DNA of 49,930 nt, taken from positions 1 to 49,930 of the forward strand of contig CANMSB010000035.1 in the NCBI GenBank assembly GCA_947500445.1. Direction: 5' to 3'. How positions within the stretch are numbered: position 1 is the first letter of the stretch; the number at the start of each line of letters is the position of its first letter. The notes under the pieces are model-generated. The model saw only the letters and a list, made by a program, of their open reading frames with translations. It had not been told where the DNA came from and ran no database searches. The position numbers were made by a program, and so were the translations under genes. Shown in pieces: positions 1,701 through 23,269 of this stretch. The stretch comes from an uncultured Flavobacteriaceae bacterium (GTDB lineage: Bacteria > Bacteroidota > Bacteroidia > Flavobacteriales > Flavobacteriaceae).

Positions 1701-1725
1701 TGGAAACGTGTTGATACAATGTTAA

Positions 1726-1767
1726 AAAAAAGCGTCAAGTTTTTAGGAAGAAACAAGGCGCTTTTTT
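1726..1767 (+). terminator. Weak terminator or attenuator after DUF4856 gene
   Basis: AAAAAAGCG at 1726-1734 pairs with CGCTTTTTT at 1759-1767 across a long loop, and the right arm ends in a T run. It could end part of the transcription before the imelysin gene. The loop is long for an intrinsic terminator. Confidence 0.4.
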
Positions 1768-1775
1768 ACTTTTGC

Positions 1776-1799
1776 TTAATTAGAATAAATAAAAATAAG
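1776..1799 (+). promoter_or_regulatory. Putative Fur-like site 3 before imelysin gene
   Basis: The 24-base site TTAATTAGAAT...AAAAATAAG agrees with the site at 19773-19796 at 21 of 24 positions and ends two bases before the imelysin ATG. Its position after a possible terminator suggests the imelysin gene has its own iron-responsive promoter. Confidence 0.5.
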
Positions 1800-1801
1800 C
1801 T

Positions 1802-2944
1802 ATGAGCCGATACTTTGTCCTTGCTTTTTTGTTGGTAGCCTTAGGCGGATGTTCTTCCGATGACGGAACCACAGGTGGTTCTCAGAGGGACGAAACCCCA
1901 AATGACGACCCCAAACCGGTATCCTTTGAACGGAGCACGTTATTAGTCAACTGGGCCGATAATATTATCGTGCCTTCCTATGAGGCCTTTGCTTCGGAAC
2001 TAGAGGTGTTACAGGGAACGTTCGAGGCGTTTCGGTCGGATGCCAGTACCGACAATTTGGTGGCCTTTCGTGCCGCTTGGTTGTCCAGCTACCTGGCTTG
2101 GCAAAGGGTTTCCATGTTTGAGATCGGTCCGGCGGAGTCCGCGGGATTTCGGTTGAACATCAATACCTATCCCGTGGATGCCGAAAAGGTAACCGCGAAC
2201 ATGAACGGTACTTCCGATTTGGCCTTGCCCTCCAATAGGGACGCCAAGGGTTTTCCGGCCTTGGATTATCTGATAAATGGCTTGGCGGATACCGATGAGG
2301 CCATTGTTTCCAAGTACAATGAAGCCGATAGGGAACAGTTATTGGCCTATACCGATAAAGTAATAACCGATATGGTAGGTTTGACCGGCACAGTGCTATC
2401 GGAGTGGAACAATGGGTACCGTAATACATTCGTATCCAATGATGGTGCTTCTGCTACGGCCTCCGTAGATCGCTTCGTGAACGATTTTATCTTTTACTAT
2501 GAAAAGTTTTTAAGGGCAGGTAAGATGGGAATTCCGCTAGGTGTTTTTTCCGGAAGTACCCTTCCCGATAGGGTAGAGGCCTTCCATGAAGGTACCATCT
2601 CCAACACCCTGTTTTTAGAAGGACTATCGGCGGTACAGGATTTTTTTAATGGAAAACATTTTGGTTCCAACGAGACCGGTGAAAGCTTGGCCACTTATCT
2701 AGAGGCGCTCAATTCCGTTAAAGGAGGGGAGAGTTTGACCGATTTGATCAACATTCAATTCGACAAGGCCAAAGAAAGTGTCGCTTCCTTACGCCCGTTC
2801 AAAGAAGAATTGATGGAAAATACCGTTCCTACCGAAATGGGCAATGCCTACGATGAAGTACAACGGGCGATTCCGTTGTTGAAGGTGGATATGGTTTCCG
2901 CGATGAGCATCAGTATTGATTTTGTCGATGCCGATGGCGATTGA
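1802..2944 (+). CDS. Imelysin-like (IrpA-type) lipoprotein
   Basis: The 380-residue protein has a lipoprotein signal (GGC lipobox, Cys17) and then an all-helical imelysin-type domain: WADNIIVPSYEAF near residue 51, AWQRVSMFEIGPAES near 99 and GFPALDYLING near 150. Imelysins (IrpA, ICMP) usually carry a GxHxxE signature; here the aligned segment is GFPALD at residues 150-155, so the His and Glu are replaced by Pro and Asp. That makes peptidase or direct metal chemistry doubtful and fits the non-canonical Bacteroidota branch. It lies 3 bases before the HTTM gene and carries a Fur-like site at its start. Likely an outer-membrane or periplasmic iron-uptake accessory. Confidence 0.85.
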   Translation: MSRYFVLAFLLVALGGCSSDDGTTGGSQRDETPNDDPKPVSFERSTLLVNWADNIIVPSYEAFASELEVLQGTFEAFRSDASTDNLVAFRAAWLSSYLAWQRVSMFEIGPAESAGFRLNINTYPVDAEKVTANMNGTSDLALPSNRDAKGFPALDYLINGLADTDEAIVSKYNEADREQLLAYTDKVITDMVGLTGTVLSEWNNGYRNTFVSNDGASATASVDRFVNDFIFYYEKFLRAGKMGIPLGVFSGSTLPDRVEAFHEGTISNTLFLEGLSAVQDFFNGKHFGSNETGESLATYLEALNSVKGGESLTDLINIQFDKAKESVASLRPFKEELMENTVPTEMGNAYDEVQRAIPLLKVDMVSAMSISIDFVDADGD

Positions 2945-2947
2945 TCC

Positions 2948-4309
2948 ATGACATCCTTTAAAGAAAAATATCTATTTCAAAACGTAGAGGCCGCCCCATT
3001 GGCGGTCTTTCGTATTTTATTCGGCCTGATGATGTTCGTTAGCATCGTTCGGTTTTGGAGCTACGGTTGGATTGAGAAATTGTATGTCCAACCGCAATTT
3101 TTCTTTTCGTATTATGGTTTTGAATGGGTAAAACCATTGGGCGACTATACCTATTTGATTTTTTTCGTTTGCGGGTTTTCGGCCCTTATGGTGGCAATAG
3201 GGTACAAATATCGTATCGCTATGGTCTTGTTTTTTGTCAGTTTTACCTATATCGAACTGATGGACAAGACCACCTATCTCAATCATTATTATTTCATCAG
3301 TGTAGTGAGTTTTTTAATGTTGTTTCTACCGGCCAATGCATACTTTTCGGTGGACGCCCGGCAACATCCCAAAAAAGCGTTCAAATATGTTCCGGTTTGG
3401 ATGATCAATAGCTTAAAATTGCTACTGGGCATCGTTTACGTTTATGCGGGATTGGCAAAATTGAATTCCGACTGGCTGGTAAAAGGGATGCCCCTTAAAA
3501 TATGGCTGCCCTCCAAATTCGACACCCCCCTTTTGGGAAACCTGGTACAGACGGAATGGGCACCCTATGCCTTTAGCTGGTTGGGTACCGGTTACGACCT
3601 GTTTATTCCATTTTTATTGTTATACCGAAGAACAAGGATCGTGGCATTTGTTGCCGTTGTGGTATTTCACGTACTGACAAGGGTACTGTTCCCCATCGGG
3701 ATGTTCTCTTATATTATGATCGTATCAACGCTAATTTTCTTTGATGCCCGGGTACACCATAAGATACTTGGGTTTTTTACCAAGATGTTGCGTCTATCAA
3801 AAACCCTTGATGGGGTCGGCGCTACATGGAGGCCGAAAAATAGTTTTAAGATGGCCTACGTGGTCCTGATCGGTTTTTTTGCGTTGCAAGTATTGGTTCC
3901 GTTTCGATACCTCTGCTATCCGGGGGAGCTGTTTTGGACCGAAGAGGGGTACCGTTTTTCTTGGCGGGTGATGCTGGTAGAAAAATCGGGATATGCACAG
4001 TTCAAGATCGTAAACGGGGATTCGGGAAAATGGTTTTATGTCGACAACAGCGACTTTCTGACTCCCTTTCAGGAAAAGCAAATGGCATTCCAGGCCGATT
4101 TTATTTTAGAGTACGCACATTATCTTAAACAACATTTCGAAAAACAGGGACATGCACAAGTGGAAGTTTATGTTGATAACCAAGTGGCCTTAAATGGAAG
4201 ATTGAGTACCACGTTTGTAGATCCTGCCGTAAATTTGGCAGCGCAAAAAGAATCGTTCGCACACAAAAACTGGATTATTCCGTTCAAAGATGAGATCAAA
4301 GGGCTATAG
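2948..4309 (+). CDS. HTTM domain membrane protein (vitamin K carboxylase-like)
   Basis: A 453-residue protein with about eight hydrophobic segments in its first 320 residues, starting near residue 19, then a soluble C-terminal part. The motifs YLNHYYF near residue 110 and YVYAGLAKLNSDWL near 166 are typical of the HTTM family, related to the membrane part of vitamin K-dependent gamma-carboxylase. The bacterial members' reaction is mostly unknown. It begins 3 bases after the imelysin stop and overlaps the next gene by 20 bases, so translational coupling is likely. Its fixed place between an imelysin and a TonB receptor suggests it modifies a ligand, a lipoprotein or the receptor; that is inference. 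Confidence 0.8.
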   Translation: MTSFKEKYLFQNVEAAPLAVFRILFGLMMFVSIVRFWSYGWIEKLYVQPQFFFSYYGFEWVKPLGDYTYLIFFVCGFSALMVAIGYKYRIAMVLFFVSFTYIELMDKTTYLNHYYFISVVSFLMLFLPANAYFSVDARQHPKKAFKYVPVWMINSLKLLLGIVYVYAGLAKLNSDWLVKGMPLKIWLPSKFDTPLLGNLVQTEWAPYAFSWLGTGYDLFIPFLLLYRRTRIVAFVAVVVFHVLTRVLFPIGMFSYIMIVSTLIFFDARVHHKILGFFTKMLRLSKTLDGVGATWRPKNSFKMAYVVLIGFFALQVLVPFRYLCYPGELFWTEEGYRFSWRVMLVEKSGYAQFKIVNGDSGKWFYVDNSDFLTPFQEKQMAFQADFILEYAHYLKQHFEKQGHAQVEVYVDNQVALNGRLSTTFVDPAVNLAAQKESFAHKNWIIPFKDEIKGL

Positions 4310-6761
4310 TAGTATCATAATGATATTTTTTTCGTTGGTCCTTTATGGACAAAACGTCATCAACGGAACGGTTACCAATGATAAGGGCGAACCCATAGCC
4401 GACGCGGAGGTATACTTAAAGGAACTACAGCGGTTGGAATATACAGAGGAAGACGGCACGTTCCGGTTTTCGGAGGTTTCGGGCGGAAAGTACACCTTGA
4501 TCGTTTTTGCCTTTGAATATGACGTTTACGAGGAAGCGCTCACCTTTGATAAATCGCTTACGGTAAACATTCCCTTAAAGCCGTTACGGACCGAAAAGTT
4601 GACAGAGGTGGTGCTTACCCAACGCCGAAACCGCCTTTTCGCCCTGCAACAATTGAAAAAAGTGGAGGGCACCGCCATCTACGCCGGCAAAAAAAGTGAG
4701 GTCGTTTTGTTGGAGGGCGTTACGGGCAACTTGGCCGCAAACAATGCAAGACAGGTATACGGGCAAGTAGTGGGGCTCAATATCTACGATAATGGCGATG
4801 CGGGATTGCAGCTCAACATCGGGGGAAGGGGATTGGACCCCAACCGTACCGCCAACTTTAATACCAGACAAAATGGGTACGACATCAGTGCCGATGTGCT
4901 GGGATATCCCGAAAGCTACTACACCCCGCCCGCGGAAGCACTGGAGGAAATACAGGTAGTGCGGGGAGCGGCTTCGCTACAGTATGGGACGCAGTTCGGG
5001 GGGTTGATCAATTTTAAGTTTAAAAAACCAAATCCGAACAAAAAGATTGAATGGACCTCTCGGCAGACGGTAGGTTCCTTTGATCTCCGAACAAGCTTTA
5101 ACAGTTTGAGCGGAACCGTAGGCAAGTTGAGTTACTACACCTACTTCAATTATAAAGAAGGAGAGGGGTTTCGGCCGAATTCCAATTTCAACAGCCGTAA
5201 TTACTTTGCGCATATCGGATATCAATGGTCCGATCGTACAAAAATCAGTGTAGAGACCACTTTTTTAAATTATTTGGCCCAACAGGCGGGAGGGCTTACC
5301 GATGCCCAGTTTATTGAAGATCCCACTTTTAGCAATCGGACACGGAATTGGTTCGATGTGGATTGGAAACTATTTTCGGTTCGGTTGGACCATCGGTTTT
5401 CATCAAAAACGGACTTTAGTTTCAACGTGTTTGGGCTCGATGCCTCCCGAAAAGCGCTGGGTTTCCGAACCAATCGGGTATCGCAACCCGATGTGTTGGA
5501 AGAACCACGGGAACTATTGGTCGATAATTTTCAAAATTGGGGTGCCGAAGCGCGGGTTTTATCGCGATACACCCTGTGGAACAAAGAATCTGCCCTGCTT
5601 TTGGGGGCCAAGTTTTACAATACCGACAACGATCAACGTCAGGGCCCGGGGAGCAATGCCTCCAACGCCGATTTCAACTTTAGGGACGATGAGTTCCCAA
5701 ATTACGAACGGCAATCACAATTTGATTTTCCCAACCTGAACGTGGCCCTGTTCGGTGAGAACGTTTTTAATATTACCGACAAACTATCGATAACCCCTGG
5801 TTTTCGTTTTGAGCATATCCGAACCGAGAGTGTCGGAAGCTACAAGAATATTGCCTTAGATTTGGCGGGCAATCCCTTGTCGAACGAAGAAATCGAGGAC
5901 AACCGAATATTCGACCGCAGCTTTGTATTGCTAGGTCTGGGGGCCACCTATAATATAGTGCCGGGAATGGAAGTTTATGGCAACGTTTCGCAAAACTATC
6001 GTTCGGTTACCTTTAGCGATATACGGGTGGTCAACCCATCTTTTCAGGTAGATCCCAATATTACGGACGAAGATGGATTAACTGCCGATCTGGGCGTCCG
6101 TGGGCGTTATAAAAACACGCTATCCTACGACATTAGTGCTTTTGGCCTGTTTTACGATAATCGTTTGGGAGAAGCCTTACTTGCTACCGATACCAACGGT
6201 ACCGTTCGGGTAAGGGGCAACATTGGGGACGCGTTTATTTATGGGTTGGAAAGTTTTGTGGATTGGAACATTGCCGAAACCTTGTGGAACCAAAATGAGG
6301 CATACCAATTGAACCTGTTTTCGAATTTGGCATTGACCCGCTCCGAATATGTTCGCGTAAACCCTTTGACCCTGGCCGGGGCGACCCAAGTGTTGCCGCT
6401 ACGGGAAGGCAACGAAGTGGAGTTTATACCTCGTGTCAACCTCAAGACGGGATTGAATTTTGGCTACAAAAATCTACTGGGAAGTTTGCAATACACCTAC
6501 TTGTCCACCCAGTTTACCGATGCTACCAACGCCCCCCAAGACGTTTCCGATAACCAAAGGGGAATCGAAGGTACCATTCCATCGTACGATATATTGGACG
6601 CTTCTTTTTCATATACCTATAAAAAATGGCGACTGGAGGCGGGCATCAATAATGTGCTGAATAATACGTATTTTACGCGTAGGGCCACAGGCTATCCCGG
6701 GCCGGGAATTATTCCATCGGAACCAAGAACATTTTATACTACCTTACAGTTTAAAATATGA
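4290..6761 (+). CDS. TonB-dependent receptor, FecA-like
   Basis: An 823-residue outer-membrane receptor. After a signal peptide (about residues 1-20, ending LYGQ) comes a carboxypeptidase-regulatory-like beta-sandwich (about 22-100, starting INGTVTNDKGEPIADAEVYL), a plug domain (about 105-250, with EEIQVVRGAASLQYGTQFGGLINFKFK) and a 22-strand-type barrel ending in the aromatic signature TLQFKI. Such receptors import iron chelates or similar ligands with TonB-ExbBD energy. The plug is most like Fe(3+)-dicitrate (FecA) receptors. Its ATG lies inside the end of the HTTM gene (20-base overlap), which ties it to the DUF4856-imelysin-HTTM run. The ligand cannot be told from sequence. Confidence 0.92.
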   Translation: MRSKGYSSIIMIFFSLVLYGQNVINGTVTNDKGEPIADAEVYLKELQRLEYTEEDGTFRFSEVSGGKYTLIVFAFEYDVYEEALTFDKSLTVNIPLKPLRTEKLTEVVLTQRRNRLFALQQLKKVEGTAIYAGKKSEVVLLEGVTGNLAANNARQVYGQVVGLNIYDNGDAGLQLNIGGRGLDPNRTANFNTRQNGYDISADVLGYPESYYTPPAEALEEIQVVRGAASLQYGTQFGGLINFKFKKPNPNKKIEWTSRQTVGSFDLRTSFNSLSGTVGKLSYYTYFNYKEGEGFRPNSNFNSRNYFAHIGYQWSDRTKISVETTFLNYLAQQAGGLTDAQFIEDPTFSNRTRNWFDVDWKLFSVRLDHRFSSKTDFSFNVFGLDASRKALGFRTNRVSQPDVLEEPRELLVDNFQNWGAEARVLSRYTLWNKESALLLGAKFYNTDNDQRQGPGSNASNADFNFRDDEFPNYERQSQFDFPNLNVALFGENVFNITDKLSITPGFRFEHIRTESVGSYKNIALDLAGNPLSNEEIEDNRIFDRSFVLLGLGATYNIVPGMEVYGNVSQNYRSVTFSDIRVVNPSFQVDPNITDEDGLTADLGVRGRYKNTLSYDISAFGLFYDNRLGEALLATDTNGTVRVRGNIGDAFIYGLESFVDWNIAETLWNQNEAYQLNLFSNLALTRSEYVRVNPLTLAGATQVLPLREGNEVEFIPRVNLKTGLNFGYKNLLGSLQYTYLSTQFTDATNAPQDVSDNQRGIEGTIPSYDILDASFSYTYKKWRLEAGINNVLNNTYFTRRATGYPGPGIIPSEPRTFYTTLQFKI

Positions 6762-6829
6762 AGTGGTTCGGGCTTTTTGCTTAAATGAAGAAATTTAAAC
6801 GAGTTCAATAACCTACAATAGCATTACCA

Positions 6830-7288
6830 ATGAAAATCGTAAAAAAACTCTTATTGGCCCTTTTGGTCGTTTTTGTATTGATGCAGTTTTATCGCCCGGA
6901 GAAGAATGAGGCACCCTATCGCGATGTTGCCTCCTTTGAGGCCGACACCAAACCGACTCCCGAGATAAAAACGATCTTGGAAAACAAATGCTACGATTGT
7001 CATAGCAATAAAACGGAATATCCTTGGTACTCCGAAATAGCCCCAATGTCCTATATCATTGCGGACCATGTGGAAGAAGGGAACGAGCACTTCAATGTGT
7101 CGGCCTGGGACAGCTATGACACAAAGAAACGGGACCATAAATTGGATGAGTTGATCGAGGAGGTAGAGGAAGGTGAAATGCCTGAAAAAGGATATCAATT
7201 GCTACACGGCGGTTTTTCGGAAGAAGAGAAGGAGGCCCTGATCGCATGGACGAGAAAGGTACGGGAGCAGTATCAGGTGTCCAATTAA
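6830..7288 (+). CDS. Haem-binding domain protein with CxxCH
   Basis: A 152-residue protein with one N-terminal hydrophobic segment (about residues 5-20, signal peptide or anchor) and a covalent haem motif CYDCH at residues 54-58, followed by SNKTEYPWYSEIAPMSYIIADHVEEG, the hallmark of the Haem_bd family. The domain is thought to be a periplasmic c-type cytochrome; its electron partner is unknown. It follows the TonB receptor by 68 bases on the same strand, so it may share that transcript, but family members also occur alone. No second haem motif is present. Confidence 0.88.
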   Translation: MKIVKKLLLALLVVFVLMQFYRPEKNEAPYRDVASFEADTKPTPEIKTILENKCYDCHSNKTEYPWYSEIAPMSYIIADHVEEGNEHFNVSAWDSYDTKKRDHKLDELIEEVEEGEMPEKGYQLLHGGFSEEEKEALIAWTRKVREQYQVSN

Positions 7289-14549: not shown

Positions 14550-14570
14550 TTCAAAGTTAAAATGGTATTA
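14550..14570 (+). repeat. Dispersed short repeat, copy A
   Basis: TTCAAAGTTAAAATGGTATT plus A. The identical 21 bases recur in reverse complement at 41640-41660, with variants at 30420-30440 and 37982-38030. Here it covers the stop codon of the PepSY reductase gene. Confidence 0.7.
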
Positions 14571-16766
14571 ATAACAGTCCATTTTTAGCTGTCCCTTCCG
14601 CTCGAATTCACTTAGGGATGTCTTCAATTGCTCAGCTACGATAACCTCTAGAACCCTCAGAACTTCCTGTTGCATCGCTATGGAGCCACATAGCATAATA
14701 ACTGCACCGGCCGACAATTGTTCCGCAATAAGAATACGTTCTTGTTTTAGAAGATCTTGAACATACATCTTTCTTAAAGGGCCGCGGGAATAAGCTGTTT
14801 TAAAAGAAGTCAGCTTTTTAGTTGCTATGGGTCCGTTGAGATATGTTTTGTACAGCGAAAGGGAATTTTCCGTACGACCGCCCCAGTAAAGCTGTATCGG
14901 AATGTGGCGTTCGTTTGCGGCGATTATCCCTAAAAACGGGGCGATACCTGTACCGTTGCCGATGCATAATAAACAAGGAATATTTTTTGGTAGATGAAAC
15001 GAAGGATTTTTTTCAATTGCGGCATGAACAATGTCATTTTCCGTTACGGAATAAAAGTAGTTGGAAGACATGCCGAATTCGTGTTTTTTAATACTTAATA
15101 GGATATCGTTTTCAATTCGGGCAATGGAGTACCTTCTGGGCGCACTTCCCGCCTCGGGGCAATGCACTAACAGATCTCCCGATTCGAACGAACCATAGTT
15201 TTGCGGTCTTAGTCGAATCAAAAAAGTGTCGTCCCCGTTCAAAAGGGTTCTATGGATTACTTTGAAGGGGCGGGAGATAAACTTTTTATTTGGTTTTGGA
15301 GGTTTTTGTAGTTGCAAAGGAACCTTATTTGCCAGGCCCCACTGCGATACCCAATGGTCAAATGCCGCGAATGAGGCATTGTTGATCTTATTAAGGGGAA
15401 CGCTTGACTTGAAATACGGATGTTCCTGCAAACGTTTCGCTACGTCCACGGCGTATTGACAATACTCCGGATATCTTAAAGAGCCAAACCCCAAAACGCT
15501 ATACTGCATTGGACGACGTACCGGTGTTGTGTTGAAAAGGTTTATAAAATTGCGCGCGTTCGCGGGAGGGTCGCCTTTACCATAGGTTGCGGTGAAAACG
15601 ATGATATGCTTGGCCATTTTGTACGTGTTATAGTAATCCATAGGCGCTTTGAAAACACTTTTCCCGGATCGGACAAGAGCATTTTGGAACAGGGTGGCAA
15701 AATCCGAAGTCGTACCCGTTTCCGATCCCACTAAAAGGATATATTCGGAGGTGTCCTTATCCGACATTGGGTTTAAGGTGCGGAGCCTTCTAAGACGTTT
15801 GAGCCCCATTATGGTACCCGAATACACAAAAAAGAGAATCGAAATACCGGTGAAGATCAATAACAACGACCATAATATACTCCCTTGTCCCGTATGCAGT
15901 TTTAAACTTAAGCTGGAGACCAAGGTTACAAAAGGGTAGGTTTTCTCGTTCAAAATAGCACCACTATGTTGATGTACCAATATTTGTCGGTCCCGTAAGT
16001 CAATTTCGAAATGGTCCTCAGGCGCATCGGAAAAAGGAAAGGTTACCAACCTGACATCGTTCAAAAATATTGTTTGAAAAATTGGAGTCGTTCCTTCGGC
16101 TCCCCTCTCTTCGTCCGTTACAATTGTTTCGGAAGTGTCGTTTATCGGTGTTTTGGGGAGTAATGAAAACTTTTCCGCGGATAGGAACAATCCCGTAGCG
16201 GCAACAAGAAATACCGGAAGCATGGCCCATTGACCTGTAATGGCATGGTAGCGTTGTGCAAAAGTATCTTTCTGGACCTTGGAAAAGATTCTTTTGATTC
16301 CACCTTGTCGTCTGGCCAACAGAAAAAATCCGGTTACACAGATAAGGCAAAGTAAAAAAGAAATAACGCCCACAAAAGCGCGACCAATGGTCTTTAGGAA
16401 TAACGAACGGTGTAGCGTAACGGCCCACTTGTAGATTTGCAACTTCTCTTTTGGGCTTCCTAGGGTATTGCCCGTTACGGGGTCCACATATATACGTTCG
16501 GAACGGCCGGTTTTGGTAATTACGGAAGCAATTACAAAATCGTTTGCATCGATTTCCAAAGCCAATATTTCATCATGGTGGTTCTGCAGTGCGCGGATCG
16601 TTTTCTCCAGCGAAACTTGGTTTAAGGCTGCTTTTTTAAAAGGTAGTGCCGCTTCGGAAATCGGTTCAAAAGCAAGAATGATTCCCGTTAATGCGGCAAT
16701 CGTTAAAAAAACTGCGGAAACAATGGCCAAAATAAGGTGGGCATACCTCCATATGGTAATGGACAT
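14568..16766 (-). CDS. PepSY-flavodoxin-FNR fusion reductase
   Basis: A 732-residue fused electron-transfer protein. An N-terminal PepSY membrane region has four helices (about 10-33, 127-150, 177-196, 296-320), each beginning near a histidine (His10, His119, His174, His291), as in ferric/haem reductases. A flavodoxin domain follows (about 341-480; LLVGSETGTTSDFA, TYGKGDPPANA), then an FAD-binding domain (RRYSIARIE, about 540-580) and an NADPH-binding domain (CIGNGTGIAPFLG, about 605-620). The layout predicts electrons from NADPH through FAD and FMN to haem or iron at the membrane. It ends the DUF6607-ankyrin-DUF2271 operon and probably reduces imported ferric iron or haem. Substrate not proven. 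Confidence 0.88.
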   Translation of the reverse strand: MSITIWRYAHLILAIVSAVFLTIAALTGIILAFEPISEAALPFKKAALNQVSLEKTIRALQNHHDEILALEIDANDFVIASVITKTGRSERIYVDPVTGNTLGSPKEKLQIYKWAVTLHRSLFLKTIGRAFVGVISFLLCLICVTGFFLLARRQGGIKRIFSKVQKDTFAQRYHAITGQWAMLPVFLVAATGLFLSAEKFSLLPKTPINDTSETIVTDEERGAEGTTPIFQTIFLNDVRLVTFPFSDAPEDHFEIDLRDRQILVHQHSGAILNEKTYPFVTLVSSLSLKLHTGQGSILWSLLLIFTGISILFFVYSGTIMGLKRLRRLRTLNPMSDKDTSEYILLVGSETGTTSDFATLFQNALVRSGKSVFKAPMDYYNTYKMAKHIIVFTATYGKGDPPANARNFINLFNTTPVRRPMQYSVLGFGSLRYPEYCQYAVDVAKRLQEHPYFKSSVPLNKINNASFAAFDHWVSQWGLANKVPLQLQKPPKPNKKFISRPFKVIHRTLLNGDDTFLIRLRPQNYGSFESGDLLVHCPEAGSAPRRYSIARIENDILLSIKKHEFGMSSNYFYSVTENDIVHAAIEKNPSFHLPKNIPCLLCIGNGTGIAPFLGIIAANERHIPIQLYWGGRTENSLSLYKTYLNGPIATKKLTSFKTAYSRGPLRKMYVQDLLKQERILIAEQLSAGAVIMLCGSIAMQQEVLRVLEVIVAEQLKTSLSEFERKGQLKMDCY

Positions 16767-16774
16767 CCTATTTT

Positions 16775-17260
16775 CTATTTGGGTAACATCCGAACATAAC
16801 GGATAAAACCTTTCCCTTCTTTTTTAGAGTTCAAATTTTCGGAGGTCAACTCAAACTCGACATCGTCCTTAAAATAGTCTTGATCCTCTACCGCGGATTC
16901 AAAACGAATTTTATATCCCTTATCGATTTTGTCCTTAGGGATGTTCAAAAGCACCATTTTACGCTGCCCTCCGGTAACCGTTTCCCCGGTAATGCCGTCA
17001 ATATCGGGTCTTTTGGTCCCATACAGGTTTTTCCACCACTCCTCGATATCCCGATACCATTCCTTATCGTCCCCTTGCACATATAAGGTCTCCAAATACA
17101 CATCTTTTGTATCCAATAAGGATACCACTACATATGCGCCTTCCCCGGTATAATTGGTCAGTTGGATCATACATTTGTATTGTTCGGTTTCCATAGGTGG
17201 GATAAATCCAGTTGTTCCCAAGACAATCAGGGCGAACGTTAATAGTGTGCTTTTTTTCAT
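16775..17260 (-). CDS. DUF2271 domain secreted protein
   Basis: A 161-residue protein with a signal peptide (about residues 1-19). The mature part (GAYVVVSLLDTKDVYLETLYVQGDDKEWYRDIEEWW, then GGQRKMVLLNIPKDKIDKGYKIRFE) resembles DUF2271, a family often found next to PepSY membrane proteins and with an FlgD-like beta-sandwich. Its stop is 8 bases before the PepSY reductase start, so the two are almost certainly co-translated. Function unknown; a periplasmic partner of the reductase is the natural inference. Confidence 0.82.
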   Translation of the reverse strand: MKKSTLLTFALIVLGTTGFIPPMETEQYKCMIQLTNYTGEGAYVVVSLLDTKDVYLETLYVQGDDKEWYRDIEEWWKNLYGTKRPDIDGITGETVTGGQRKMVLLNIPKDKIDKGYKIRFESAVEDQDYFKDDVEFELTSENLNSKKEGKGFIRYVRMLPK

Positions 17261-17287
17261 TGCTTTTATATTTCTTTTAGTGCCGTA

Positions 17288-18781
17288 TCATTTTAAAAAA
17301 TCGAGTTGGGTCAGCTGATCTTGCAAAAGCTCATTTTCACTTATCAGTTGGTAGGTGGTTTCATCAAAGGCCGTTTTTAGTTCCTTGTTCGCACCTAGTG
17401 TTATCAGATACTTTAAAATAGCCGCATCCGTACCGCTCATTGCCGCCAAATGCAGCGCTGTATAGCCCTCGTTGTTCAAATGATCGATGGGTATTTTGAA
17501 TTCCTCCAAGCGTTCTAAAAGCCCAAGGTTGTTTTCCCGGGCGGCAATATGCAAAAGGGTATTTCCATTTTCCTGTATAGCGGTCATCGTCACTCCCTTT
17601 TCCAGAAGTAAACGCAATTTGGCATCAAAGGGTCCCGTTTTTTTGGGTTCGTACGCCTTTAACAGATAGTATGCTATGGAATTGCCCTTATCGTCTAGGA
17701 TATTACTTTTAGCACCCTTTTTTAAAAGAAGGTCTACCACATCGGCACTATTGTGCTCAACCGCTTTGGTCAGTGAGGATCGGCCGGCATTATCCAAAGC
17801 ATTATGATTTCCCTGCTGTTCAAGAAGGTAGGTGACAATAGGTAGCGCGTTTTGTGATGCCGCATTCATAAATGGGGTATGCCCATCGGCGTCACTTTTA
17901 TTCACATCTACGCCCCGCTGGATAAAATGTTCAAATACTTCCCGGTCCGTGCACCGATAGGCAAGGGAATGCAGCACATTTTGTCCCTGAAAATTGCTAC
18001 TGTTGGCCTTAATGCCCAAACGCTCTAAATAAATGAACGTATCCAGGGTAACTTGTGTGTTTCGGGTACCTTTACTAGCCATCAACATCGCATTGTCCCC
18101 GTTAACGTTCTCATAGTCAAAAGGAATCCCCTTTTTTATCAAGGTTTTTAAAAAGGGAACATCCCCGCCTTTTGCCGCATAATGGAATAGGCCGCTCCCG
18201 TTGTTGTCCCTCGCTTTAATGTTCAAACCTTTATCGGAAAAATAGGTTACCAGGTCAAGGTTTTTTAAAAACGGCGCAACCAAGAGCAGTGCGTTGGCAC
18301 CGTCCGTGTTTGTGTTCTTGATATCCGCTCCGTGTCCCAACAGAAAATCGTAAAGCCGATGATCTGTTTGACCGGTGACGGCGGCAAAATTTAGCACCGA
18401 GTACCCATGGCTATCCATTTCGGTGGCCTTCGCCCCCTTGTCGACCAGATGGCGCATCATTTCCAGATTACCGCGATAAGCGGCCCAAAAGAGGTAGGTT
18501 CTTCCGTCGTGGGTTCGTTTGTCTACCGTATTGTTTCCCTGGGTCAAAAGAAATTTAATGGTGTTGTTATCGGTTTTCTCGAGTAGGGCGTAGCAGACCG
18601 GATCGAACATTGCGGAGGTAAATGCACCGATGTCGTTACCTACGGCGATATCGGATTTTATGGTCGCGATGTCAGGATTCGCCTTCCAGTACGATCGATT
18701 TAAAAAAACGTTGTCCTGGCAAAGCATTTTGCTGACACAAAATAGTAGCAACAACACCGGAAAAAGTCTGTTCAAGGTCAT
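17288..18781 (-). CDS. Secreted ankyrin-repeat protein
   Basis: About 497 residues from the chosen start MTLNRLFPVLLLLFCVSKMLCQ, which gives a clean signal peptide. The longer in-frame start at 18874 would read 86 bases into the upstream DUF6607 gene and hide the signal peptide. The mature protein is about a dozen ankyrin repeats, e.g. DGRTYLFWAAYRGNLEMMRHLVDKGA, NGSGLFHYAAKGGDVPFLKTLI, EGYTALHLAAMSGTDAAILKYLI. Ankyrin arrays bind proteins; a periplasmic location is unusual enough to note. It sits in the middle of the DUF6607-DUF2271-PepSY reductase operon (7 bases after the DUF6607 stop, 27 before DUF2271). Partner unknown. Confidence 0.88.
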   Translation of the reverse strand: MTLNRLFPVLLLLFCVSKMLCQDNVFLNRSYWKANPDIATIKSDIAVGNDIGAFTSAMFDPVCYALLEKTDNNTIKFLLTQGNNTVDKRTHDGRTYLFWAAYRGNLEMMRHLVDKGAKATEMDSHGYSVLNFAAVTGQTDHRLYDFLLGHGADIKNTNTDGANALLLVAPFLKNLDLVTYFSDKGLNIKARDNNGSGLFHYAAKGGDVPFLKTLIKKGIPFDYENVNGDNAMLMASKGTRNTQVTLDTFIYLERLGIKANSSNFQGQNVLHSLAYRCTDREVFEHFIQRGVDVNKSDADGHTPFMNAASQNALPIVTYLLEQQGNHNALDNAGRSSLTKAVEHNSADVVDLLLKKGAKSNILDDKGNSIAYYLLKAYEPKKTGPFDAKLRLLLEKGVTMTAIQENGNTLLHIAARENNLGLLERLEEFKIPIDHLNNEGYTALHLAAMSGTDAAILKYLITLGANKELKTAFDETTYQLISENELLQDQLTQLDFLK

Positions 18782-18788
18782 TGCGTAC

Positions 18789-19724
18789 TTATTTTCCATT
18801 GGTTTTTTCGGTGGCGCTATCACTAACGAACGAATCGATAATGTCGTCGATTTCCTTTTTTTGTTGTACTTCATCGGAAAAAAGGTATTTGTACAACACC
18901 TTGTTGGCTACTTTTTCATGAAGCGTCAAATCTGTATTTCGTGCGAAAACGGCATCCCATTTCGCCCTTACTTTGGTCCATTTTTCCTGTGATGTTTGCC
19001 ACCAATCGGCCGCGGCCTTGCAGCGCTCGTCCGCTACTCGATGGTAGGTATTGTATCCTTTTTCTTTGGCAAGCACCACATCCTCGGTTGTCCCGGATCG
19101 GATTATTTTCTGATTGTCCTGGTCGTGTACCCATCCCGTTTCGGTAATCTCATGTCGGTTGCCGCGTAACGTAATGTTGTAATCGCCCCGAGTGGTATAC
19201 TCCCTTCGTGGCAAAGGGGCCGGCGTAGTATTTTCCCAATAGCTTTTACCGTCTACATGTACCCAGGTAGCACTGCCCTCATAGCGCGGGCTGTCATCGA
19301 CCTGAAACACCTTTTGTGTCCATTGCCCCGCTACTTCGGAATCGTCTTTCTTTATATAGGACCAATTGTTGTCCCCATTGTACTGGTACAAATCTTTGTT
19401 TTCGTACAACCAGTCTTGCCGCCAGTGTTTGATGATCATCGGTTCGGCAGGGTCCCCGACTTGAAGAATGTGTTGGATCACCACTTTACCCGCCTCGTCC
19501 GTCACCAGCTGGGCCCATTCAAGTCCTTTGTCAATTTTGGTTTTTGAAGGTTTGTAAAGGCTGTCGTTGCTATAATTAAAAGTCTCCGCAAAATTGAAGG
19601 TCACTTCATAACAGCCGCACATTTTTTTGATGGCCGCCGCATCCTGAAGTTGTTTGGTGTCCTGTGCGATGCCAAAAGTGTTTAGCATAGCCAAAGCCAT
19701 TATGGTAAAAATTGATCGTTTCAT
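18789..19724 (-). CDS. DUF6607 family secreted protein
   Basis: A 311-residue protein with signal peptide (about 1-20, ending GIAQ). CGCYEVTFNFAETF near residue 36 and repeated Trp/Tyr-rich segments (HWRQDWLYENKDLYQYNGDNNW, GSATWVHVDGKSYWENTTPAPLPRREYTTRGDYN) match the DUF6607 family, of unknown function. It is the first gene of the leftward operon and is divergent from the HmuR-like receptor; the 24-base Fur-like site sits between the two starts. The aromatic-rich mature part could bind haem or a chelate, but I see no haem ligand motif. Confidence 0.85.
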   Translation of the reverse strand: MKRSIFTIMALAMLNTFGIAQDTKQLQDAAAIKKMCGCYEVTFNFAETFNYSNDSLYKPSKTKIDKGLEWAQLVTDEAGKVVIQHILQVGDPAEPMIIKHWRQDWLYENKDLYQYNGDNNWSYIKKDDSEVAGQWTQKVFQVDDSPRYEGSATWVHVDGKSYWENTTPAPLPRREYTTRGDYNITLRGNRHEITETGWVHDQDNQKIIRSGTTEDVVLAKEKGYNTYHRVADERCKAAADWWQTSQEKWTKVRAKWDAVFARNTDLTLHEKVANKVLYKYLFSDEVQQKKEIDDIIDSFVSDSATEKTNGK

Positions 19725-19772
19725 TTCGTTCGTATTTATATGATCGTTATTGCTGCCGTAAAAATATAAAAT

Positions 19773-19796
19773 TTATTTAGATTGAATAAAAATAAG
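19773..19796. promoter_or_regulatory. Putative Fur-like site between divergent haem operons
   Basis: TTATTTAGATT...AAAAATAAG, 24 bases, matches the site at 312-335 in 21 of 24 positions. It ends four bases before the -7 element of the receptor gene and lies upstream of a degenerate leftward -7 (about 19757-19768), so one bound repressor would shut both operons. Confidence 0.6.
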
Positions 19797-19799
19797 ATA

Positions 19800-19807
19800 T
19801 ATATTTG
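19800..19807 (+). promoter_or_regulatory. -7 promoter element of HmuR-like receptor gene
   Basis: TATATTTG fits TAnnTTTG and is 18 bases upstream of the receptor ATG. It is directly adjacent to the Fur-like site, which would cover the -33 region. Confidence 0.55.
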
Positions 19808-19825
19808 CCCTGTTAGTTATTAAGA

Positions 19826-21919
19826 ATGAATCTGAATAAGTTGGTTTTGCTCATTTTTGTGGTGGTATGCGGTTCCTCGGTTAGCGGCCAAGACGGGCCG
19901 CTGCAAAAAGATTCCGTGCTTACACAGGATTTGGACGAGGTAGTGGTCACCGCAACACGTACCCTACGCCAACTGTCGTCGCTTCCCCTGCCCGTTACCT
20001 TAATTTCAAGAGAGCAACTGCAACGAACGGGGGTGCTGCGTTTGAACGACATTCTGGACGAGCAAACGGGAATCGTGACCGTAACGGATGAAAGCGGGTT
20101 CAGTGGTGTACAGATCCAGGGCATTGCCTCCGACTATGTCATGATCCTTATCAACGGTGTTCCCCTTGTGGGACGTTCCTCGGGAAACTTTGATTTAAGC
20201 CGTTTGACAGTGGGCAATATCAAGCAGGTTGAGGTGGTCAAAGGCCCCTCATCCAGTCTCTACGGCTCCGAAGCCCTAGGGGGAGTGATCAATATCATTA
20301 CGGAAGATGTCCATTCTGAAGACTTACATGGGAACGTATCGTATCGCTTCGCTTCCTTCAATACCCATGATGCGAACATCAATGTCGACCAAAAAATAGG
20401 GAAGCTTGGCTATGCCTTGTTCGCGAATACCTTGCATAGCGATGGCTATGATTTTCGCCCCGAGATAACAGGGCAAACAGTGGAGCCGTTCAACAATTAT
20501 ACCTTTAATGGACAGCTGTCCTATGATTTTTCCAAGGATCTCAAACTTTTCGCCTCCGGAAGATATTACCAACAAGACCAAGAGGCATCGCTGATGGTGG
20601 ACGAAGCGTTTTTTATGGGCAGTAGCGATATCGATGAGGGGAACCTGCACCTGCGATTGGACGATGGTGCCGGTAAAAAAATGCAATTGCAATACGAGCT
20701 CTACTACACCAATTATCGGGCAAAGGAACTACTGGCGAGCCCGGTAACGGACGATGTTTTCAGCCAAAGCGAGTTTGATCAAAATTTGATCCGTCCGGAA
20801 ATCCGCGCTACATATACCGTAAACGCCAAGAACAATGTTATTGTCGGAGTTGGCTATAACCATGAAAATTTGGACCGGACCTTTTTTGACGACCAGGTCG
20901 TGTTCGATTCCCAATATGTGTACGCCCAATACGACGTCTATCCGTTGGAGCGTCTTAACATGATTTTGGGCGCACGCTTTGACAATCACAGCGAGTATCG
21001 GTCGCAGTTTAGTCCTAAAGCGGCCATGAATTGGAAGCTTTCCGATGCCCTTTCTGTAAAGGGTTCCATGGGCTACGGTTTTAAGGCGCCCGATTTCAGG
21101 CAATTGTATTTCGATTTTACCAATTCTGCAGTGGGCTATACGGTGCTTGGGTACAACGTTGCCGTTGCCAAGGTACAGGAGCTGGAGGGCCAAGGACAGC
21201 TTATCGACATTCTATATGACCTGTCGGAACTTTCGGAACCCTTAAAGGCCGAACGTTCCATAGGCTATAATTTGGGCGCTTCCTATCGAAAAGGAAAGCT
21301 GCAGATTCAGGTCAATGGTTTTAGAAACGATTTTACCAATCTGATCGATACCAGGGCCATAGCCCGAAAAACCAACGGACAAAATGTTTTTAGCTATACC
21401 AATTTTAACAAAATCTACACCACTGGGCTCGAACTTGACGGACAATATAAGTTAAATGAACACCTACAGGTGGCTGCAGGGTATCAATTATTATACGCAA
21501 AGGACAAACAAAAAAAGGTGGCTTTGGAACGGGGCGAGGTTTTTGCACGCGACCCGCGGACGCTGCAGACCATTGCCTTGGATAATTCCGATTATTTCGG
21601 GCTCGTCAACCGTTCCAGGCACACCGCCAATTTTAAAATGTTCTATACCGTTCCCAATTGGGGTCTGGACCTGAATCTTAGGGTCAACTACAGAAGTAAA
21701 TACGGTCTGTTCGATGGTAATGGTAACGGCATAATCGATGGTTACGATACCATCTTTGTCGATGGGTACGCTCTTTTTAATGTGGCCCTGAACAAGACGT
21801 TTAACGATAATTACACTTTACAGATCGGTGCCGATAACCTATTCGATTACACCGATCGGGACAATATTCCCGGACTGGCCGGGATACAACTATTCACCAA
21901 AATAAATATTCAATTTTAA
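19826..21919 (+). CDS. HmuR-like TonB-dependent haem receptor
   Basis: A 697-residue outer-membrane receptor with signal peptide (about 1-21), a TonB box-like DEVVVTATRT near residue 38, a plug domain (about 50-165; RTGVLRLNDILDEQTGI, VEVVKGPSSSLYGSEALGGVINIIT) and a beta-barrel ending in Phe (INIQF). It lacks the carboxypeptidase-like N domain of the 4290 receptor. Near residue 420 the segment FKAPDFRQLYFDF resembles the YRAP-region of haem receptors. The next gene, 10 bases away, encodes a HmuY-like lipoprotein, the known partner of HmuR in Porphyromonas, so haem is the most likely cargo. The receptor class is certain; haem specificity rests on context. Confidence 0.9.
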   Translation: MNLNKLVLLIFVVVCGSSVSGQDGPLQKDSVLTQDLDEVVVTATRTLRQLSSLPLPVTLISREQLQRTGVLRLNDILDEQTGIVTVTDESGFSGVQIQGIASDYVMILINGVPLVGRSSGNFDLSRLTVGNIKQVEVVKGPSSSLYGSEALGGVINIITEDVHSEDLHGNVSYRFASFNTHDANINVDQKIGKLGYALFANTLHSDGYDFRPEITGQTVEPFNNYTFNGQLSYDFSKDLKLFASGRYYQQDQEASLMVDEAFFMGSSDIDEGNLHLRLDDGAGKKMQLQYELYYTNYRAKELLASPVTDDVFSQSEFDQNLIRPEIRATYTVNAKNNVIVGVGYNHENLDRTFFDDQVVFDSQYVYAQYDVYPLERLNMILGARFDNHSEYRSQFSPKAAMNWKLSDALSVKGSMGYGFKAPDFRQLYFDFTNSAVGYTVLGYNVAVAKVQELEGQGQLIDILYDLSELSEPLKAERSIGYNLGASYRKGKLQIQVNGFRNDFTNLIDTRAIARKTNGQNVFSYTNFNKIYTTGLELDGQYKLNEHLQVAAGYQLLYAKDKQKKVALERGEVFARDPRTLQTIALDNSDYFGLVNRSRHTANFKMFYTVPNWGLDLNLRVNYRSKYGLFDGNGNGIIDGYDTIFVDGYALFNVALNKTFNDNYTLQIGADNLFDYTDRDNIPGLAGIQLFTKINIQF

Positions 21920-21929
21920 AACAACTACT

Positions 21930-22565
21930 ATGAAAATGATCGGTAAACCTTTTTTCTTTTTTCTTTTGGCATTGGTGCTCGGCGCCTGTAACAATGATGA
22001 TGATACTCCTGATCTGGTTGCTGTAGAAAGTGAGACAGCCACTAATATCCCGGCCCCGCAGACGGGTGGACCACCTTCCGAGGATCCTGCGGGGGGACCA
22101 TTTACAAAGTTCAGTTTTGAGACAGGTAGCGTTACCACAAGCGATACGGAATGGGATATTGCATTTAGGGGTACACGAATAGCGGTGAACGGTGGAGTAG
22201 AAACTGGCTCTAACGACGAACCTGTTAGAAACGGGAATGCAGCAGCGGCCATAGCGACCGGTACGTTCGCCAGCATAACCGATGCTTCCAATTACACTTT
22301 TGCAGAAGATTCCGCTACGGGCTTTGCGATTCCCGCAGGAAGCGATAACGGCTGGTACAATTATAACCCCCAGGTAAATGTGGTTACTCCCATCCCCGGC
22401 ACAGTACTAGTGATTCGGACACATAACGGGCGTTTTGCAAAGGTAGAAGTGTTGAGTTACTATAAAGACGCACCCGCCCAACCGGACGGTTTTGTGGACG
22501 AATTTCGCTTTTACACTTTTAACTATGTATACAATCCCAACGAAGGGGAAACCACTTTGGAATAA
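21930..22565 (+). CDS. HmuY-like haem-binding lipoprotein
   Basis: A 211-residue lipoprotein (LGAC lipobox, Cys20, then NNDDDT). The mature domain has the HmuY-family order: FTKFSFETGSVTTSDTEWDIAFRGTRIAVNGG, then TVLVIRTHNGRFAKVEVLSYYKDAP and FYTFNYVYNPNEGE. HmuY proteins scavenge haem at the cell surface and pass it to HmuR. It lies 10 bases after the receptor gene, and an operon terminator follows. Porphyromonas HmuY uses two His ligands; I could not place equivalent histidines with confidence (one His is visible, in RTHNGR), so ligands may differ here. Confidence 0.85.
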   Translation: MKMIGKPFFFFLLALVLGACNNDDDTPDLVAVESETATNIPAPQTGGPPSEDPAGGPFTKFSFETGSVTTSDTEWDIAFRGTRIAVNGGVETGSNDEPVRNGNAAAAIATGTFASITDASNYTFAEDSATGFAIPAGSDNGWYNYNPQVNVVTPIPGTVLVIRTHNGRFAKVEVLSYYKDAPAQPDGFVDEFRFYTFNYVYNPNEGETTLE

Positions 22566-22912
22566 GTGGAAGGCACGTCGATAACAAAGGTACGTCCCTC
22601 AAAAAATACGCTAAGAATTTATGTTTGCAATTGCGTTTGAGTTGGTTTGGAACCGGTCACTTTTCGGAGTGGCCGGTTTTTTAACTTTAATGTCCATCCA
22701 CTATCAATACCGATAGGGGCATCACGGGTATATACAGACGGTGTTTTTAGCACTATTTGCCATTGAATTTTCAATAAAAAATGTTAAAATCAGGAAATCC
22801 TTGTAACAAAATCATTTTTGGGGCGTCTTTTTAGTAATTCATCAATTAATCAATAATTAAGTTTTGCAATCAACCGACGCAGGTCGGATCAAAACTTTTA
22901 AAACGAAAAGTC
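22566..22912. other. Intergenic spacer after HmuY gene
   Basis: The 347 bases hold a good terminator (22651-22682, listed separately) and, before the next gene, a short hairpin ACCGACGCAGGTCGG near 22874. I see no further coding potential or RNA gene. Confidence 0.6.
22651..22682 (+). terminator. Terminator of the HmuR-HmuY operon
   Basis: AACCGGTCAC (22651-22660) pairs with GTGGCCGGTT (22669-22678), with a single G-T pair, around an 8-base loop and runs into TTTTTT. Confidence 0.8.
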
Positions 22913-23269
22913 ATGAAAAAATTAAGTGTAGTAGTAGCAGCGGTAGTTTTATTTTGTTCAACTAATGTATTTGCCAACAATGGTAAAAAAGGCAATGTAA
23001 AAAAGAACGCGCCGACCGAGGTCAAAAGTCTGTCCCATCAAATCCATTCCTTTTTAAAGTTCAACAACCTTACCGAGGAAACGGTCGGGGAGACCGCCCA
23101 CATCACTTTTATGCTGAACAACGACAAAGAGATCGTCGTTCTTTCTGTAGATACGGAGGATTCCAAAATGGATACGTTCGTGAAAAGCAGACTGAACTAT
23201 AAAAAAGTAGTCATGAACGGATATGTAGCTGGTAAAAAGTACACCGTATCGGTCCGTATCGCTTCGTAA
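22913..23269 (+). CDS. Small secreted protein of unknown function
   Basis: A 118-residue protein with a clear signal peptide (MKKLSVVVAAVVLFCSTNVFA, about 1-22), a Lys-rich stretch, and a ~80-residue domain with strands such as VGETAHITFMLNNDKEIVVLSVDT and GKKYTVSVRIAS. The alternating pattern faintly recalls the TonB C-terminal fold, but it lacks a membrane anchor and proline-rich linker, so I do not call it TonB. It is monocistronic, ending in a strong terminator. Not recognised further. Confidence 0.8.
   Translation: MKKLSVVVAAVVLFCSTNVFANNGKKGNVKKNAPTEVKSLSHQIHSFLKFNNLTEETVGETAHITFMLNNDKEIVVLSVDTEDSKMDTFVKSRLNYKKVVMNGYVAGKKYTVSVRIAS

Follow-up and report, generated by a model that had tools for sequence, protein, structure and literature searches.

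A RhuH-type haem locus joined to genes for predicted flavin-based electron transfer and an exported ankyrin protein in a member of the Flavobacteriaceae

How iron or haem is freed after its passage through the outer membrane is, as far as is known to us, an open question, to which a gene cluster of an uncultured Flavobacteriaceae bacterium suggests a testable answer. The cluster occupies positions 14568-22565 of a stretch of 49,930 nucleotides (GenBank assembly GCA_947500445.1, contig CANMSB010000035.1, forward strand; the whole stretch is called the window below), and consists of a receptor and lipoprotein gene pair and a four-gene operon that diverge from one control region. What do the two sides do together? 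The reading preferred here, given a probability of roughly 0.7, is that two known modules have been joined, one for haem capture of the RhuH type and one for flavin-based electron delivery leading to reductive release of iron or haem. The locus is real, conserved and mostly explained: its haem half is of a described kind, and so is the other half, a triad of ankyrin, DUF2271 and PepSY reductase genes, apart from its ankyrin partner. A preliminary description of this DNA had presented the locus as the best candidate in it for an undescribed system; that term no longer suits either half, and it does suit their operonic fusion, which is new.

The six genes, their order and the gaps of 7, 27 and 8 bases in the leftward operon, all given in that description, agree with open reading frame (ORF) coordinates and with Pfam matches above curated cut-offs. 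On the minus strand, leading away from the control region, are genes for a DUF6607 protein with a signal peptide (18789-19724, 311 amino acids (aa)), an ankyrin-repeat protein predicted to be exported (17288-18781, about 497 aa), a DUF2271 protein, also predicted to be exported from a signal read in its sequence (16775-17260, 161 aa), and a membrane reductase that combines PepSY_TM, flavodoxin and FNR/CysJ-like (NADPH-P450-reductase-like) regions (14568-16766, 732 aa). On the plus strand are genes for a TonB-dependent receptor of HmuR/RhuR-like type (19826-21919, 697 aa) and a HmuY-family lipoprotein (21930-22565, 211 aa). The spacings stand as quoted because the ankyrin translation start is taken at M32 of the longest ORF (base 18781; the ORF extends to 18874), a residue invariant in 79 of 79 aligned sequences. 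The host genome, of 5.18 Mb, contains one gene each for DUF6607, DUF2271 and HmuY, three for ApbE and four for PepSY_TM proteins, and its closest named relatives by DUF6607 are Flavobacteriaceae, e.g. Maribacter, Zobellia and Allomuricauda.

The haem half can be recognized from DUF6607. This protein matches its Pfam family with 330 bits, above the curated cut-off, and matches PDB entry 8xjc_A over residues 8-300 of 311 (phmmer, 4.8e-84); its structural model (pLDDT 77.6), a barrel-like fold, also finds 8xjc_A by Foldseek (E 3.6e-28, TMt 0.84, root mean square deviation 5.8). PDB 8XJC is RhuH, a haemophore of Riemerella anatipestifer for which a solved structure and mutant phenotypes were published in 2025 (PMC11967795; published work is cited here from partial texts unless a main text is named). 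RhuH binds haem via one His with a Kd of 3.4e-11 M, and is reported to be secreted in vesicles (PMC11967795). The haem contacts were taken from the AlphaFold3 model in that paper and from its His96 mutant, as the ligand His96 and five propionate contacts; the six corresponding residues of the window protein (H100, R147, Y148, R174, R187, Q202) are invariant in 127 of 127 sequences, a count from which no sequence was dropped (a prior comparison had kept only those of 250-400 aa). Judged by sequence and modelled fold, DUF6607 is part of the RhuH haemophore family, and an unnamed Pfam family can now be equated with a haemophore that has a solved structure and mutant phenotypes, not with the undescribed periplasmic relay component of the preliminary description. 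Haem binding and secretion by the window protein are predicted from its kinship to RhuH and its visible signal peptide. The treatment of DUF6607 as an uncharacterized family was dropped once the PDB sequence search had hit 8XJC; the name DUF6607 was absent from the papers searched (open-licence PubMed Central, as in all literature searches here). The best structural matches of the DUF6607 model after RhuH are nitrobindins, haem-binding barrels; the word nitrobindin is absent from the main text of the RhuH paper.

The genes across the control region encode plausible partners for a haemophore. The receptor scores above curated Pfam cut-offs for the barrel (142 bits) and Plug (84 bits), and has a FKAPDFR box and two His (H388 and H599) that are invariant in 29 of 29 sequences. 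Its best NCBIfam matches, TonB-B12 (183 bits, cut-off 600) and TonB-hemin (168 bits, cut-off 317), are both far below cut-off, and haem specificity is not settled by the receptor sequence alone. The lipoprotein matches PF14064 with 35.1 bits against a cut-off of 27, its lipobox cysteine (C20) is invariant in 29 of 29 sequences, and it matches PDB 8b6a_A by sequence at 8e-5. Its model (pLDDT 85) matches BfrB of Bacteroides fragilis (8b6a, E 1.4e-7) and holo-HmuY (3h8t, E 7.5e-6, prob 1.00), so that by sequence and modelled structure it is a genuine HmuY-fold lipoprotein. The HmuY relative HfpY of Flavobacterium psychrophilum binds haem (PMC9331221); the kinship of the window's receptor and HmuY copy to RhuR, RhuA and HfpY rests on layout.

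The layout gives the haem half further support, being divergent as in rhuH/rhuR-rhuA with a Fur-box-like element between the two sides. Riemerella has rhuH diverging from rhuR-rhuA, with a Fur-box promoter between them, and Fur controls that locus (PMC11967795). The shared control region of the window, as the preliminary description had it, is confirmed (19725-19825, 101 bases), and it contains the Fur-box-like element TTATTTAGATTGAATAAAAATAA at 19773-19795 (no strand assigned). The pattern was derived from the window together with related regions, and its zero mismatches in the window are thus by construction. The core TATTTAGA is present in 55 of 59 related control regions, that of the window among them, where base shuffles predict 2.1; these sequences are related and not independent. 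The R. anatipestifer Fur box ATTTAGAATTATTCTAAAT agrees with bases 19775-19793 at 14 of 19 positions by hand count (PMC5609570). This one control region would serve both modules and is probably iron-responsive. A further match to the pattern, with two mismatches, lies at 19817-19839 and overlaps the receptor start. Scans for sigma-70-type promoters gave no excess (12 found, 15.5 expected).

What, then, does the triad contribute? The PepSY protein scores above curated Pfam cut-offs for PepSY_TM (125 bits), Flavodoxin_1 (52 bits) and NAD_binding_1 (31 bits); its cysJ-like NCBIfam match is below cut-off, and its sequence matches in the PDB are P450 reductases, NO synthases and sulfite reductase alpha. 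It is predicted to be a transmembrane electron carrier of the inner membrane, with NADPH as the likely donor on account of the likeness of its cytoplasmic half to P450 reductase and CysJ. Four histidines (H10, H119, H174, H291) are invariant in 76 of 76 sequences, and we infer that they are haem ligands; the PepSY protein FoxB has two haem sites with two His each (PMC11334425). The DUF2271 protein matches its family with 125 bits, above the curated cut-off. A survey of flavinylation (eLife 2021, PMC8238504) reports that a DUF2271 protein is flavinylated by ApbE at [S/T]GA[S/T] and that 2833 PepSY clusters contain DUF2271, tied to iron reduction, and PepSY and DUF2271-type genes are under iron control in papers on Caulobacter and Alteromonas. 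The acceptor position is Thr in 79 and Ser in 1 of 80 DUF2271 sequences, and the strict motif is present in 48 of the 80, the window counted, the sequences at this site including TGAT (39), VGET (15) and TGET (7); the window protein is predicted to carry covalent flavin mononucleotide (FMN) on T94. A shift of the motif with receptor type (strict in 12 of 26 HmuR-type and 30 of 45 other-type loci) was a weak trend and was not used. Because DUF2271 with PepSY is a described kind of flavin-based electron transfer across the membrane, one that has been linked to the reduction of iron, electrons most likely flow outwards to the envelope, in place of the delivery of haem or iron to the reductase that had been proposed.

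The ankyrin protein (Ank_2, 160 bits, above the curated cut-off) has a signal peptide read from its sequence, and its recurrence suggests that in this group it regularly accompanies DUF2271 and PepSY as their third partner. Its conserved His, inspected by eye as candidate haem ligands, look like ordinary repeat positions and gave no lead. Full-text searches found no paper with ankyrin and DUF2271 together, and none with ankyrin, PepSY, TonB-dependent receptor and Flavobacteri; titles and the beginnings of abstracts gave none on RhuH combined with PepSY. The preliminary model, in which DUF6607, ankyrin and DUF2271 form a periplasmic relay that passes haem or iron inward to the reductase, could draw on haem binding by the DUF6607 relative RhuH and on Cj1386 of Campylobacter, an ankyrin protein that can traffic haem, listed as cytoplasmic in a review. 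It is improbable, given that DUF2271 is a published flavin-carrier family (PMC8238504), that the PepSY protein has NAD(P)H-oxidizing domains, that RhuH is reported secreted (PMC11967795) and that in most of the genomes drawn the triad does not lie with DUF6607.

The association of the two halves was examined in 80 loci, the best-scoring of 222 DUF6607 relatives and biased to close kin, with draws from the phylum and class as a less biased control. The cluster counts for the 80 are slightly low: the DUF6607 ORF is miscalled in L057 (79 of 80), and genes cut at contig ends count as missing. By cluster assignment, all four leftward genes are present in 73 of the 80 loci, on a single strand in 73 of 73, with no foreign ORF among them in 64 of 73 and with median gaps of 4, 7 and 10 bases (longest ORFs used). 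The triad and a HmuY-type receptor pair both stand beside DUF6607 in 67 of the 80: 26 loci have the HmuR/HmuY pair, and 41 have a different receptor with a longer HmuY-family protein (of 44 such proteins 11 were tested with Pfam, and all 11 are HmuY). The receptor is thus exchangeable and HmuY is retained. The others comprise seven with the triad and no such receptor, three with the second receptor type and no full triad, two with HmuR/HmuY and no full triad, and one with neither. Among nine other genomes of the window's genus, four have DUF6607, with the triad adjoining in two (G642, G646) and not in the other two (G641, G643).

Other arrangements were also noted in these loci. In Zobellia and a Zobellia-like genome (L007, L013, L136), DUF6607 is followed by DUF2271 with no adjoining ankyrin or reductase gene, and in L049 (12064-15885) genes for a TonB-dependent receptor and a lipoprotein-like protein of 459 aa separate DUF2271 from the reductase. 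Next to DUF6607 in 13 of 80 loci, and also in several distant loci, is a recurrent protein of some 417 aa that carries a type IX secretion tail (L050, 4315-5568; L119, L219); PF14064 finds HmuY in L119 and L219 and not in L050. In 30 of 80 loci by cluster (e.g. L058, 14157-14513), the operon is followed by a gene for a small DUF6686 (PF20391) protein of some 118 aa, of which one member was scanned.

The neighbours bear on a further explanation, that the triad guards the envelope from haem or iron toxicity, by keeping haem iron or thiols reduced or by helping to detoxify peroxide, and does not serve uptake. Haem import does bring an oxidative load. The Campylobacter ankyrin protein serves catalase, according to the review. 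This explanation is improbable, as no catalase, peroxidase or thiol enzyme was found among the recurrent neighbours that were Pfam-scanned (most single neighbours lay outside the scan), and the iron box fits acquisition.

The control sample comprised 43 loci besides the window, from genomes drawn evenly across the phylum and the class, with 9 to 19.5 kb fetched for each. DUF6607 is near a HmuY-type gene in 33 of the 43; with the 67 of 80 close loci, this upholds the link to haem genes drawn in the preliminary description. Match lists of whole genomes agree: HmuY is found in 24 of the 25 genomes with DUF6607 among 296 in the phylum draw (vs 72 of 271 others), and in 28 of 30 among 395 in the class draw (vs 125 of 365 others). 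The triad in its turn is a module separate from the DUF6607/haem core. Away from DUF6607 in the phylum draw, it lies on one strand in 18 of 20 DUF2271 loci, one of them (L200) with an extra ORF between; these 20 were fetched out of 23 above cut-off, the other three being that of the window itself, one next to DUF6607 that was seen in L136 (G182:C13) and one more (G254). An ApbE-like ORF was recognized by motif in 14 of the 18 triads, and Pfam confirmed ApbE in 8 of 8 tested, three on the opposite strand. Recurrence of DUF6607 near HmuRY, which had been proposed as a check, is therefore broad, and that of ankyrin, DUF2271 and reductase genes near HmuRY is confined to close relatives. Likewise the leftward genes, said to act as one unit, do so in their single strand and tight spacing, and not in evolution at large, where the triad occurs without DUF6607 and the haem core without the triad (G641, G643). 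A role of DUF6607 as stand-in for CobN/HmuS was also considered; CobN is near HmuY by coordinates only in two genomes (G253, G290), too few for a test, and most CobN genomes are in one family (f17), none of them in the HmuY list.

This modularity suits a strong rival explanation, that the triad serves as a periplasmic ferric reductase of general use, acting on siderophores, citrate or free Fe3+, and is linked to the haem genes only through common transcription and control by iron, with no mechanistic tie to haem. A siderophore-type receptor accompanies 4 of the 18 triads away from DUF6607 (L206, L207, L214, L216), PepSY systems have been linked to siderophore iron reduction (PMC8238504) and to XusC (PMC13142918), and most haem cores of the broad draws have no adjoining triad. 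A siderophore-type receptor is also inserted between the DUF6607 and ankyrin genes in 7 of the 80 close loci (L033, L046, L053, L054, L056, L062, L068; TonB-dependent, about 807 aa, one member scanned). Against this stand the 67 of 80 nearest loci in which the triad stays with a HmuY-type receptor pair despite varying receptor type, and the tight spacing, which suggests co-expression; the explanation is a serious one, with a chance somewhat short of even.

The joining of haem capture to flavin-based electron delivery remains the preferred reading, and it would operate as follows. DUF6607, as an exported haemophore of the RhuH type, and the HmuY-type lipoprotein would collect haem and pass it to the HmuR/RhuR-type receptor. 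The PepSY protein would draw electrons from NAD(P)H through its flavin adenine dinucleotide (FAD) and FMN domains, and these would cross the inner membrane over two haem b, held by the four invariant His, to DUF2271, whose covalent FMN would come from one of the three ApbE proteins of the genome, acting in trans. Within the periplasm, reduced DUF2271 could then donate electrons to iron or haem in the ferric state supplied by the haem module, and the reduction would loosen the ligand and free iron or haem, the ankyrin protein probably docking DUF2271 to its partners. Reductive release is the likely role of the locus, and we infer the electron path in this host, the electron acceptor and the ankyrin role. 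The genes, their order, family membership, conserved residues and modularity are findings of this analysis; haem binding by RhuH, Fur control of the rhuH locus and flavinylation of a DUF2271 come from papers on relatives. A bolder version, which is unlikely, has a DUF2271 flavin protein, kept by the ankyrin protein on the receptor's periplasmic side, reducing ferric haem as it arrives or while bound to the haemophore and so breaking a very tight grip; or else iron would be removed from haem in the periplasm with no need of a haem oxygenase or ABC importer. We know of no redox-driven haem release step in a bacterial envelope, a step that was not searched for as such.

Several observations weigh against the preferred reading. 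The triad is beside none of the 33 HmuY-linked DUF6607 loci of the broad draws. In the remaining 10 of those 43 loci no HmuY-type gene is near DUF6607 (two have the triad, seven have neither and one is a contig-end fragment), and DUF6607 is thus not tied to HmuY everywhere: in two of them (L115, 5432-9946; L235, 4663-10086) it comes immediately after a siderophore-type receptor and a PepSY_TM protein (223.7 and 207.7 bits), the third kind of neighbourhood seen for this haemophore family, in four (L229, L230, L231, L236) none of the modelled partners is beside it, and in L137 only a weak receptor match is near it. The window's DUF2271 reads TGET (in D-G-I-T-G-E-T) in place of the strict motif [ST]GA[ST], and ApbE is absent from the window, all three host copies lying off its contig. 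The distances from the Fur-like box are 50 bases to DUF6607 and 32 bases to the receptor; the Riemerella values are 25 and 78. The Pfam score of the HmuY copy is modest, and the 29 HmuY members have no conserved His and no conserved Met except M1 (93% level). HmuY-family haem ligands are His/His or Met/Met, those of Porphyromonas gingivalis HmuY included; haem ligation by the window's copy, if any, would differ from that of the P. gingivalis protein, its predicted fold being unaffected. A secreted protein like RhuH may never meet a periplasmic DUF2271. No experiment on this operon was found in the literature searched.

Elsewhere in the window, a rightward gene run at 405-7288 is preceded by Fur-box-like elements at 312-334, 373-395 and 1776-1798 and encodes a DUF4856 protein, an imelysin (Peptidase_M75), a HTTM/vitamin-K-carboxylase-like protein, a TonB-dependent receptor and a Haem_bd (PF14376) protein; it is a probable second iron locus. 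On the plus strand 3' of the HmuY gene, the hairpin scan found a terminator-like hairpin of 14 pairs (22649-22680), terminator-like hairpins in the region being about as frequent as by chance (12 found vs 11.3 in shuffles). Further along is an exported-looking ORF of 118 aa (22913-23269) with no family match above cut-off.

Several known systems can be set beside the locus. HmuYR of P. gingivalis and HfpR-HfpY of F. psychrophilum (PMC9331221) are alike in being a TonB-dependent haem receptor with a HmuY-family protein, raised in low iron; on the side of the differences, the window's HmuY has no conserved His. P. gingivalis has in addition hmuSTUV with a CobN-type gene; no match to CobN was found in the genome of the window; F. 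psychrophilum has a gene between hfpR and hfpY, unlike the adjoining pair of the window. The words ankyrin and PepSY are absent from the main texts on iron uptake in Flavobacterium columnare and on HfpR/BfpR of F. psychrophilum (PMC9331221). The xenosiderophore system XusABC of Bacteroides (PMC13142918) shares an outer-membrane receptor, a PepSY inner-membrane reductase and a surface lipoprotein, but handles siderophores and not haem, its lipoprotein is a DUF4374 protein, and DUF2271 and an ankyrin protein are unnamed in the partial text. RhuH-RhuR-RhuA of R. anatipestifer (PDB 8XJC) has a like divergent layout, and its six modelled haem contacts are kept in the window; the partial text of PMC11967795 describes no operon of ankyrin, DUF2271 and PepSY genes following rhuH, and its main text does not use the word reductase. 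The PepSY flavinylation clusters of PMC8238504 (PepSY, DUF2271 and ApbE, often with DUF4198), in whose main text the word ankyrin is absent, share with the window PepSY_TM with a NAD-binding domain and DUF2271 beside iron receptors. To these the window, with no ApbE in its operon, adds a regular exported ankyrin member and the fusion with a haemophore gene, by which, in close relatives within the Flavobacteriaceae, a RhuH-type haem system is tied to a flavin-based electron chain.

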